Below are positions 1,444 through 32,690 of a DNA stretch of 32,759 nucleotides, one piece after another. The translations under genes were made by a program, and so were the position numbers. Every line of letters starts with the position of its first letter. Position 1 is the stretch's first letter. The notes beneath the pieces are model-generated. The model ran no database searches. It was not told where the DNA came from and was given only the letters and a program-made list of their open reading frames with translations. Where the stretch lies: positions 1 to 32,759 of the forward strand of contig DFEB01000049.1 in the NCBI GenBank assembly GCA_002368605.1, written 5' to 3'. The DNA comes from Treponema sp. UBA3813 (GTDB taxonomy: Bacteria; Spirochaetota; Spirochaetia; Treponematales; Treponemataceae).

Positions 1444-2286
1444 ATGATCCAACTAACAAACTTCACCAAATCCTACTCCTCAAAATCGTCCTTCGCAGTA
1501 TCGGACATAAACATGACCTGCGAGAAGGGTTGCATCACAGGCATTCTTGGCCTTAACGGAGCGGGCAAAACCACAATCCTAAAAGCCATCACCGCCCGCC
1601 ACTTTGCCACAAGCGGGAGCGTTCTTGTCGAAGGAATAGAAGCCAGCGAAAACGCCGAGCAGGTTCGGAATCTCACAGGTTTTGTAGAAGAAGAGCCAAA
1701 ACTCCCCGGCGAATACACAGTAGAAGAGTATCTGAACATGGTCGCAAGCCTTCATGGTCAGAAAATGCCCTGCATGGATGCAGGGACAAGAGCAAAGAGA
1801 GAATTTTCTGAAAGAAAATTCTCGTACGAATCAAAAAATCCACGGACGGATTTTTTGTTCGAATCATCTGCGTCCATCTGCGTTAATCCGCGTCTAATTG
1901 AATCTCTTTCCCTTAAAGAAATCTTCCACAAAAAGATAAAAACTCTCTCCAAAGGGCAGCGTCAGCGTGTCAATTTCGCACAAGCACTCATCTATAACCC
2001 AAAGGTTTTGGTTTTGGACGAGCCAGCCTCTGGCCTTGACCCGGCCCAAATCATTAACATGCGCTCTCTCGTAAAGTCGCTCAAAGCCGACCACACGATT
2101 TTGCTTTCTACTCATCTCATGCAGGAAGTCGATTCGCTTTGCGACAAGGTTTACATCCTTCATCAGGGAAAAATCGCCGCAAGCGGAAGGCCAGAAGAAA
2201 TCGCTTCCCAATTCAAGTGTAAAAACCTTGAGGAAGCCTTCTTTAAAATCACCAGCGCGAGTGATATAGTAGGGGAGCAAAAATGA
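1444..2286 (+). CDS. ABC transporter ATP-binding protein (GldA/CcmA-like) with internal insertion
   Basis: ATPase of an ABC-2 type exporter, presumed partner of the membrane protein encoded next. I start it at ATG 1444 (MIQLTNF), not the upstream in-frame ATG at 1396. AAAGGA at 1429-1434 sits 9 nt before 1444, and homology starts there. Motifs from that start: Walker A GLNGAGKT (36-43), signature LSKGQ (168-172), Walker B VLVLDEP (188-194), D-loop SGLD (196-199), H-loop STH (222-224). Between the helical subdomain start (ASLHGQK) and LIESLSLKE lie about 43 residues (108-150) where related ATPases have roughly 10-15. This stretch is encoded by consecutive hairpins and 10-bp repeats and is probably an inserted repeat element. 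The catalytic motifs are intact, so the protein may still work. Its stop overlaps the next gene's ATG by 4 nt. Confidence 0.9.
   Translation: MIQLTNFTKSYSSKSSFAVSDINMTCEKGCITGILGLNGAGKTTILKAITARHFATSGSVLVEGIEASENAEQVRNLTGFVEEEPKLPGEYTVEEYLNMVASLHGQKMPCMDAGTRAKREFSERKFSYESKNPRTDFLFESSASICVNPRLIESLSLKEIFHKKIKTLSKGQRQRVNFAQALIYNPKVLVLDEPASGLDPAQIINMRSLVKSLKADHTILLSTHLMQEVDSLCDKVYILHQGKIAASGRPEEIASQFKCKNLEEAFFKITSASDIVGEQK
1765..1894. repeat. Composite palindromic repeat inserted in frame in the ABC ATPase gene
   Basis: Three successive hairpins: CCCTGCAT/ATGCAGGG with a 2-nt loop (1768-1785), GAGAATTTTCT/AGAAAATTCTC with a 3-nt loop (1799-1823), and AAAAAATCC/GGATTTTTT with a 6-nt loop (1833-1856). 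Three 10-bp tandem units follow (ATCTGCGTCC, ATCTGCGTTA, ATCCGCGTCT; 1865-1894). The segment keeps the reading frame and has no stop. I recall ATCTGCGTCCATCTGCG-type phrases as dispersed repeats in other bacteria but cannot check that here. Confidence 0.7.
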
Positions 2287-4460
2287 AAAAATTTCTTCCC
2301 CTTTACAAATCCGCGCTTTTTTCATACCTGATTGACCCGCTTTTTTATGTCTCGTCCTTACTCACGATTCTTTTCTGTGCATTCAGGTTCTTTTTCGGCT
2401 CAAAATTTTTCGTGGCAGGGTTAGGCTCCACAGACTTGCGCCCATTTTTCAATTCTGTTCCCATCATTTCAATCCTCACGATTCCTCTTCTCACATTCAG
2501 GCTTCGCAGTCTTCTTCTCGACGATTCTCTCCCGGTCAAGTCTTTCCAAAGATTTTTCGCGCTCGCCACGGCCTCTTTCACGGCTTTTTTCCTTCCGATT
2601 CTTCTTCTGATTTCGATTCCGCTTTCTGTTTTGCGTTTTGGCTCTGTGGAGCCTGGTCAGTGCCTTGCGGGATTTCTGGGGCTTTTCCTCTACGGATTTT
2701 CTGCCGCCTCGCTTTCGGCATTTTTCTTTGCGATTTTTTATTCTTCACCGGCACTTCCGCTGATTTTTTCGGCTGTCGTTCTTGCTCTCGTCAATTTTCT
2801 TCATCTTCTGCCTCTTTATGTGAAGACAGGCTCGCTTCTCGCATTTTTCTGCAAGGCTTTTTCTTTCGCCTGGCATTTCGATTCCTTCTCAAAGGGAATT
2901 CTGGATTCCCGAAATTTCTTCTATTATATAGCCGCTTCGTTCGTGCTTCTTTTGCTTTCGGCACATTTTGAATACAAACGGCTCGGTAAAAAATCTTCCC
3001 GACTCACGATTCTGCTTTTCACGATGATTCTCCTTTTCCTTTCGGCTTCTTCACAAAATCTTTATTTCAGATTCGATTTGACAAGGGAAAAGCAGTTCAC
3101 GGTCTCGCGCACGAGCAAAAATCTTCTTTCCGCTCTTGAAAGTGACCTTCGTATCACATATTTTCGTTCCGCTGAGCTTAAAAATCTTTACCCGCAGACT
3201 GAAGATGTAGCCGAATTTTTACAGGATTATGCTTCGAGCCAGAAAAATATCACGCTCACACTCGAAAAGGCTGATGAAGAAAAACTCAAGGCCTTGGGTA
3301 TTCAGGGCCAGCAAATAAGGCACGACAACGGCACAAAAACAGAATTCGTCACGGTCTATTCGGCTGTCCTTCTGCAGTATCTCGAAAAGTCCTCGATTAT
3401 TCCCTTTGTCCTCTCAACCCAGACTCTTGAATATGATTTGAGCCAGCGAGTTCAGCAATTTATCACCCAAAAAGAAAGAAAACTTTACCTTTTATGCGGT
3501 AACGGACGCACGATTGAAGAATCTTACATGTATGTTCCGGCCTGGCTTGAAAACCGGGGCTTTACGGTCGAAGTCCTTAATGACTTTACGGCCACCGAAG
3601 TTCTCAGAAATTTAACCGCTGACGACCAAATCGCCATTTTCGGCACAAAAGATTTTTCTCAGGAAGAAGCGATTCTTATAGAAAACGCGATTGAAAAGGG
3701 CTGCAAGGCATTTTTTGCGGCAAGCCCGTATCACACTACGATTGAAGACGAATGGAAAATCTCAAAGCCCCAGAACGACCTGCTTATTTCCTATCTCAAC
3801 GGAAAGGGTTTTGCATTTGAGAATGCGCTGGTCGAAGACATCTCCTGCTATCCGCTCACAATGCAAAGCGGCGAGGGGAACACAGCCGAATATACAACGC
3901 AGAATTATCCTCTTTGGGTGGCCCTGCAGAATCAAAAAGAAGCGAAGCAGGGCGCGACAATCTTTTGGGCAAGTCCCCTTGCTCTTTACAATGATGCCGA
4001 GCCGCTTTTGTTCACGACCAATCTTGCCTGGCTTCAAAAGCCCGCTCCAAACGCAAATGAAGATTTATTTCTCACAAATCCCTTCACGCTCCCCAAAACA
4101 GCAGCCCAAAGTGATTCTCAGACCGGGCAATTCGTAGTAGCCGCCAAAAAAGGAAATATCTCGCTCGTCTCAGACCAGTTTTTCGTCTCAAGCCTCATGA
4201 CAGGCTTCATTTCAGGCGAAAGTACGGGCGACTTCAGAAACTACGACTATCTTACAAAGGAACTTTTGAATCTCCGTGGAGAAGAGGAGCTTTCCGATCT
4301 CATGCAAAAATCCGCCCCAATCACGGCATTGTATAAAATCACGGACGCCTCCCAGTTCAATTCCGCAAGAAAAGTCACAATCGCGCTGAATTTTGGCATT
4401 CTCCCGCTTCTGATTCTGGCTTTTTTTGTTTTCATTCAGCTAAAGAGGAGGGGAAAATAA
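2283..4460 (+). CDS. ABC-2 permease fused to GldG-like auxiliary domain
   Basis: Membrane component of the ABC system. The N-terminal ~235 residues hold about six hydrophobic segments (roughly 18-40, 58-76, 93-116, 128-150, 155-178, 212-230), as in an ABC-2/GldF-type permease. A further membrane segment (~238-256) leads into a large extracytoplasmic region beginning FDLTREKQFTVS. Its pattern is that of the GldG/ABC_transp_aux family, with the DLTREKQFT-like opening and the later ERKLYLLCGNG strand typical of it. A final membrane helix lies near the C-terminus, followed by KRRGK. GldF and GldG are separate proteins in gliding bacteroidetes; here they are one 725-residue chain. The start overlaps the ATPase gene by 4 nt, with GGGAG upstream. 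DUF4340, the usual companion of this family, is encoded at 8639. The substrate is unknown and I do not infer gliding. Confidence 0.82.
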   Translation: MKKFLPLYKSALFSYLIDPLFYVSSLLTILFCAFRFFFGSKFFVAGLGSTDLRPFFNSVPIISILTIPLLTFRLRSLLLDDSLPVKSFQRFFALATASFTAFFLPILLLISIPLSVLRFGSVEPGQCLAGFLGLFLYGFSAASLSAFFFAIFYSSPALPLIFSAVVLALVNFLHLLPLYVKTGSLLAFFCKAFSFAWHFDSFSKGILDSRNFFYYIAASFVLLLLSAHFEYKRLGKKSSRLTILLFTMILLFLSASSQNLYFRFDLTREKQFTVSRTSKNLLSALESDLRITYFRSAELKNLYPQTEDVAEFLQDYASSQKNITLTLEKADEEKLKALGIQGQQIRHDNGTKTEFVTVYSAVLLQYLEKSSIIPFVLSTQTLEYDLSQRVQQFITQKERKLYLLCGNGRTIEESYMYVPAWLENRGFTVEVLNDFTATEVLRNLTADDQIAIFGTKDFSQEEAILIENAIEKGCKAFFAASPYHTTIEDEWKISKPQNDLLISYLNGKGFAFENALVEDISCYPLTMQSGEGNTAEYTTQNYPLWVALQNQKEAKQGATIFWASPLALYNDAEPLLFTTNLAWLQKPAPNANEDLFLTNPFTLPKTAAQSDSQTGQFVVAAKKGNISLVSDQFFVSSLMTGFISGESTGDFRNYDYLTKELLNLRGEEELSDLMQKSAPITALYKITDASQFNSARKVTIALNFGILPLLILAFFVFIQLKRRGK

Positions 4461-32547: not shown

Positions 32548-32690
32548 CGCCAAAGGCGTTCGTCGGTCGGCAAGCCGACCTTACCGAGTTTTCTACGAAA
32601 ACTCGCGAAGCAACCGTAGGTTGCGGCGAATGGAGCGCGGTTAGCGCGGAAGGGCGAAAAGCCAAATGAGCACGAAAACGAGAGTGCTCA
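32548..32690. repeat. String of short-loop hairpins in a gene-free region
   Basis: Successive perfect stems: CGCC/GGCG (32548-32558), GGTCGGC/GCCGACC with a 2-nt loop (32565-32580), CGAGTTTTC/GAAAACTCG with a 3-nt loop (32585-32605), GCAACC/GGTTGC with a 3-nt loop (32610-32624), GCGC/GCGC (32635-32647), TGAGCAC/GTGCTCA with a 10-nt loop (32667-32690). The + frame stays open over 32445-32669 but has no gene-like features. I see no gene from 32524 to the window end. Confidence 0.75.

Follow-up and report, generated by a model that had tools for sequence, protein, structure and literature searches.

A palindrome-rich stretch inside an ABC transporter ATPase gene of Treponema sp. UBA3813 raises the question of whether dispersed repeat DNA can become part of a coding gene while the gene stays intact, and of how it came to lie there. 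The locus is contained in the window, by which is meant the whole 32,759-nucleotide stretch analyzed here (assembly GCA_002368605.1, contig DFEB01000049.1, positions 1 to 32,759, forward strand). A preliminary description had proposed a palindromic element inserted in frame and tolerated as a surface loop, and had likened it to the Rickettsia palindromic elements (RPEs).

Two repeats joined within one ATPase gene

The features of the locus are the following.

1444..2286, plus strand: ABC transporter ATPase gene with the insert, 280 residues; open frame; Pfam ABC_tran, E 1e-27; best NCBIfam model GldA-type, under its cut-off; dN/dS outside the insert 0.11-0.30 against five orthologues, a figure that also spans time before the insertion
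2283..4460, plus strand: membrane/auxiliary gene of the same transporter, downstream; Pfam ABC_transp_aux, E 8.6e-18
1758..1863, plus strand: element A, 106 nt standing where the relative L231 has 55 nt of element B; covariance-model match 1757-1866, E 2.0e-22
1768..1785, plus strand: hairpin H1 of element A, 8/8 bp; pairs kept in 95.1% of alignment cells
1799..1823, plus strand: hairpin H2 of element A, 11/11 bp; pairs kept in 99.4% of cells
1827..1861, plus strand: hairpin H3 of element A, core 1832-1857 with 10/10 bp, lengthened by CGAA/TTCG; pairs kept in 98.7% of cells
1864..1898, plus strand: right arm of element B, made up of three 10-bp units; own set of dispersed matches; full palindrome in L231 and G023

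The three near-perfect hairpins initially described are present, and folding of positions 1764-1865 beats 200 of 200 dinucleotide shuffles (z of -6.4 as RNA and -7.7 as DNA). The three 10-bp repeats were also found, at 1865-1874, 1875-1884, and 1885-1894 as read off the sequence, the repeat finder giving the first two. The stretch is nevertheless not the single element first proposed: positions 1758-1898 are two unrelated dispersed repeats, A and B, joined within the ATPase gene. BLAST of positions 1755-1905 against the genome of origin returned two sets of matches, one over query positions 1 to ~113 and the other, which is larger, over ~108-150, and B is, in the window, one arm of another palindrome. 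At the gathering score, Rfam gave no match in the window; two matches in 1600-2000 were at chance level. A further dispersed repeat occupies 32605-32663, and its match on contig C4 (L013) directly adjoins a copy of element A.

The ATPase retains what we take to be Walker A, the signature LSKGQ, Walker B, and the H-loop histidine, in agreement with the earlier statement that the catalytic motifs remain; the Q-loop place is occupied by E, as in the insert-free orthologues of an alignment read by eye. The protein is indeed longer than its relatives, with an excess of ~37-43 residues rather than the 30 or so first estimated, the insert-free orthologues of G020, G022, and G038 having 243, 240, and 237 residues. 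Among solved relatives, ABCA3 (7w01) is the nearest, and it has 10 residues opposite 43 of the ATPase (query 108-150). Sequence alignment to solved relatives places the segment in a loop, as had been suggested; the predicted structure, made from a three-sequence alignment, was unusable (mean pLDDT 37.7) and lent nothing to the suggestion of a tolerated surface position. Dispersed repeat DNA in the open frame of this transporter gene would thus code for part of a protein, leaving the gene unbroken. The genome of origin (G000) is a draft in 83 contigs, one of which holds a partial second copy of the N-terminal part of the ATPase (C39:2566-2778), 70% identical and with one stop.

The long segment is not common to all homologues. 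The ATPase loop is free of insert in G020, G022, G038, and G086 and also, judged from the alignment, in G018, G039, and G059, and the linkers of G036 and G047 are of middle length. The loop of G023 holds B as a whole palindrome and lacks A. A different in-frame palindrome, in which an outer stem encloses two inner hairpins, is carried by G051 and also by G090, where a 27-nt in-frame hairpin is added; stretches resembling this 27-nt hairpin also occur within some A copies or at their edges.

The nearest allele, L231 from Treponema sp. RGIG8904 (water deer omasum), likewise has the whole of B (fold z -4.3) without A. It is identical to the window at 305 of 314 nt from the start codon to the site and at 366 of 420 nt after it; outside the gene, the two agree at 947 of 1000 nt just downstream and at 195 of 374 nt upstream. 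Because identity falls from 97% to 87% inside the gene, the comparison suggests a recombinant ATPase gene. Because in this near relative B is a complete palindrome and A is missing here, A most likely replaced the left arm of B with the frame kept, rather than having been cleanly inserted. The B palindrome would have entered the loop before the ABC signature in this lineage, and A would later have taken the place of its left arm and loop, 106 nt for 55 nt; the difference of 51 nt is a net 17 codons. In Treponema sp. RGIG4505 (L233), the ATPase frame runs stop-free into the likely downstream membrane gene, to the contig end.

An exact-pattern scan of genome contigs, from which the window's own genome was perhaps excluded, located B at 10 loci, of which 7 belong to Treponema, 2 to a single Betaproteobacteria metagenome-assembled genome (MAG), and 1 to a Chloroflexi MAG; one of the Betaproteobacteria copies is, by eye, a whole palindrome of the same 10-bp units. 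The B-coded peptide SSASICVNPRLI is common to G023 and RGIG8904. A text search of the open-licence literature found no mention of the B sequence.

Copies of element A within genes and at gene ends

Element A, a dispersed repeat that is structured and non-coding, spans ~108 nt and forms three hairpins. A covariance model built from ten copies of the window's own genome has 33 matches there at E<=1, of which 15, the window copy included, reach E<1e-12; copies elsewhere in the genome, on which the preliminary description had staked its proposal, therefore exist. In the genus sample, 40 of 98 genomes match A at E<=0.01 and 9, the genome of origin included, have a best E<1e-19; 60 stretches around strong matches of relatives, part of the matches in this search, were taken. 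Seven of 296 Spirochaetota genomes match at E<=1e-5, all of the window's own genus, one of the 138 sampled, and the other 137 gave no match under strict filters by which weak matches may be lost.

For the analysis of pairing, 73 sources were searched, yielding 78 matches at E<=1e-6, 76 of them distinct. In this alignment, which is fitted to the structure from ten of its own copies and hence biased towards that structure, 98.2% of cells are paired and 308 show double changes, against 70.5 in shuffles; shifting the partner by one to three columns abolishes the signal. Hairpin pairing is maintained by compensatory changes. Some copies harbor a palindrome in a palindrome, a further hairpin with GAGC/GCTC-type arms inside a hairpin loop of A (the H3 loop in L147, L149, and L142; the H1 side in L133, L163, L164, and L042). 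Five 123-nt variants of the genome of origin (L038-L041 and L043), outside the 72 copies considered below, have a different, longer H2, and weak matches on C11 and C12 (E ~1e-6) precede porin-like genes and may represent another family.

Six of the 72 copies examined (10 of the genome of origin, 62 of relatives) lie in frame, in four gene families: the ATPase, LptB, ABC-F, and PolA, three of the four being ABC ATPases. Eight copies had been flagged as within an open reading frame. Those of the window, L036, L064, and L131 were kept; L029, L155, L166, and L138 were dropped as lying, by eye, in an open frame that is antisense to the real gene or is not that gene, and L031 and a second L064 copy, outside the rule, were added. 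LptB, ABC-F, and PolA were each assigned above the NCBIfam cut-off. The LptB of G000 carries one whole and, by eye, one shortened copy in an N-terminal extension and that of G023 two whole tandem copies; no A was seen in LptB of the other seven genomes, the N-termini of which differ in length and sequence. In the ABC-F ATPase, compared across eight genomes (L250-L257), A occupies the linker before the C-terminal coiled coil in G000, and the seven other genomes in which the gene was found have other stretches there, several of them palindromic by eye. Those of G090, G022, G084, G051, G086, and G038 match other loci at E<=1e-3, and the frame of G023 ends at a palindromic repeat in its linker. 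In PolA (DNA polymerase I) of G084, a reverse-orientation copy in or beside the 3'-5' exonuclease domain sits between VARLADTMIA and VAKIADTMIA; all 11 of the other genomes have one DTM stretch, insert-free.

These copies share no peptide frame: the window copy is read in one frame, those of LptB and ABC-F in another, and that of PolA antisense. Because so few copies are in frame, translation of the element may be incidental. Left out of the count is L048 (G000, contig C29), an 828-codon frame that by eye joins ATPase-like (FecE) and CobQ-like parts at a shortened, weak A match (E 3.9e-4).

Most copies are found where genes end. Measured on stop-to-stop frames of at least 200 codons, some of which may not be genes, 49 of the 72 copies fall in the interval from -15 to 60 nt around a frame end, compared with 3.5 at random positions in the same loci, and 30 within 4 nt of a stop, compared with 0.9; several copies are one insertion seen in two species, so that not all are independent. 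The gene-end junctions are divided between the H1 side (26) and the H3 side (29), 6 copies having both. Direct repeats above the 99th percentile of mismatched pairs flank 16 of the 72 copies (0.7 expected), one of which (L064) owes its repeat to a tandem copy. Inverted repeats above that percentile flank none of the 72, and around the window copy direct repeats do not rise above background.

At 12 of 58 gene-end junctions (frames of at least 150 codons; p<=0.02 each, ~1 expected), the last codons of the gene recur beyond A, always on the H1 side and never on the H3 side; some of the 12 are orthologous sites, and the counts are not independent. The repeat pairs differ at 18 of 101, 4 of 108, and 45 of 104 sites at codon positions 1, 2, and 3, respectively, with 38 codons changed synonymously and 14 non-synonymously. 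Such third-position divergence should not be expected of a target duplication drifting outside the gene. In pgi, identity between G084 and G051 is 91-97% over full 150-nt windows and drops to 67% over the final 30 nt; the relic that follows A in G084 matches the end of G051 at 21 of 27 positions, compared with 17 of 27 for G084's own end, and the relic of G022 matches the end of G086 at 24 of 27 and its own at 19 of 27. Compared with most other species, G084's own end is nearer than the relic, and the ends vary among element-free genomes too, so that an origin of the pgi relics in the gene end of another species is suggestive only. The exact 18-nt repeat of G090 lies at the end of an aminotransferase gene (best NCBIfam model below its cut-off), where G051, G084, and G090 carry A and six other genomes lack it. 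In G077 (L188), without A, a different palindrome follows the pgi stop, and by eye the last codons recur beyond it.

Origin and spread of the inserted segments

The data point, very probably, to A being a dispersed structured non-coding repeat of one gut Treponema genus, situated mostly at gene ends, with a few copies in frame and read as protein. Such in-frame copies would come to lie where added residues are tolerated, in loops, linkers, or termini, and would then be translated; the ATPase would still work as its loop is exposed, and the element would be selfish or neutral, surviving where it is harmless. The least sure step is the route of spread, which may be an enzyme acting in trans with target duplication of ~18-30 nt or recombination of element-bearing gene ends between species. 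A Y1 transposase was rejected as the general mobiliser, PF01797 being present in 2 of 9 element-rich genomes and 2 of 7 others, all drafts. A more far-reaching model, possible but doubtful, holds that several unrelated palindrome families recolonise the same loops and linkers in frame, orthologues in sister species thereby bearing different repeat-derived segments, and that A spreads enzyme-free as an allele, arriving with a synonymously diverged gene end and leaving the recipient's own end as a relic beyond it.

The hairpins could instead be kept for a host function at the RNA or DNA level, such as ending transcription or protecting mRNA 3' ends, with in-gene copies as rare by-products. The concentration of copies at gene ends, many within 4 nt of the stop, fits such a role, yet copies would be expected at the same positions if harmful insertions were removed by selection; compensatory pairing is likewise as in functional RNA, but a mobile structured element would also keep its pairing. 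The patchy distribution, strong in 9 of 98 genus genomes and with sister genomes lacking A at the same gene end, counts against this alternative, which we consider unlikely. That the extra segment of the ATPase has been co-opted and is maintained through selection at the protein level is very improbable: four close genomes do keep a long in-frame segment at the loop, and the B-coded peptide is common to G023 and RGIG8904, but the segments of sister genomes show no sequence relationship, which argues for tolerance rather than shared function. Scarcely credible is an assembly chimera or a decaying gene, to which the draft state of the genome, the ATPase-like piece with a stop on C39, and the break in the ABC-F frame of G023 at a palindromic repeat of its own could be taken to point; in several assemblies, the frame is open and the insert at this loop differs from one to another, and dN/dS is well below 1.

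Under the preferred reading, of a mostly gene-end repeat with occasional translated copies, the clade of gut spirochaetes shows the steps in living relatives, the loop of one ATPase being found empty, with B by itself, and with A laid over B. These are natural allele pairs for asking whether palindrome-made protein segments are neutral, and the codon pattern of the gene-end repeats is relevant to the spread of short palindromes that have no evident enzyme.

Comparison with known palindromic elements

Coding palindromes are on record as RPEs and in Wolbachia and M. jannaschii, in the portions of the sources used here (PMC2229807, PMC10969869, PMC2996958). The accessible account of a second group, the repetitive extragenic palindromes (REPs), reports intragenic copies and, in Spirochaetes, CGTC REPs without a dedicated transposase; the sections used name neither Treponema, Leptospira, nor Borrelia (PMC3733652). 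According to the same sections, GTAG/CGTC REPs are, like A, palindromic, mostly downstream of coding regions, and sometimes in genes, including DNA replication genes, but they are single hairpins of 20-40 bp with a GTAG or CGTC end, in contrast to the three hairpins and ~108 nt of A. The A consensus has, by eye, neither tag at its ends, and one fixed-length CGTC pattern, a narrow test, had no match in the window. GTAG REPs are driven by a Y1 transposase (RAYT), and the occurrence of PF01797 in 2 of the 9 element-rich draft genomes does not fit that pattern.

Miniature inverted-repeat transposable elements (MITEs; Correia/NEMIS, ERIC, RUP) are, in the parts of PMC2229807 used, likewise small, non-autonomous, and structured, with some translated in frame. 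As regards target site duplication, a MITE trait, the 16 A copies with flanking direct repeats include one exact over 18 nt; unlike those of MITEs as described there, the flanking repeats of A are longer and mostly imperfect, and by eye the alignment shows neither terminal inverted repeats nor TA ends. Two traits of the present system look unusual: the same loops have been colonised repeatedly by differing palindromes, and the paired gene-end repeats differ chiefly at third positions of codons; among titles and abstract openings of the open-licence literature, no similar Treponema case and no such gene-end repeats were recognised.

The nearest likeness is to RPEs. As far as the published excerpts describe them, both are of ~100-150 bp, hairpin-forming, and dispersed, encode no protein of their own, and occur between genes as well as in frame in unrelated conserved genes. 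Among the RPE traits tested, A is a dispersed palindromic repeat of ~105-150 bp and is inserted in frame in several unrelated protein genes, and comparison of the in-frame copies showed no conserved element-coded peptide. By the same excerpts, A further differs in its host phylum, its three separate hairpins, its use of at least three reading frames, its position mostly at gene ends, and the flanking repeats there. The spirochaete counterpart of RPEs proposed in the preliminary description is thus fair as an analogy, in-frame copies being present in other genes though in the minority: element A appears to work like an RPE, and membership of that family is not claimed.
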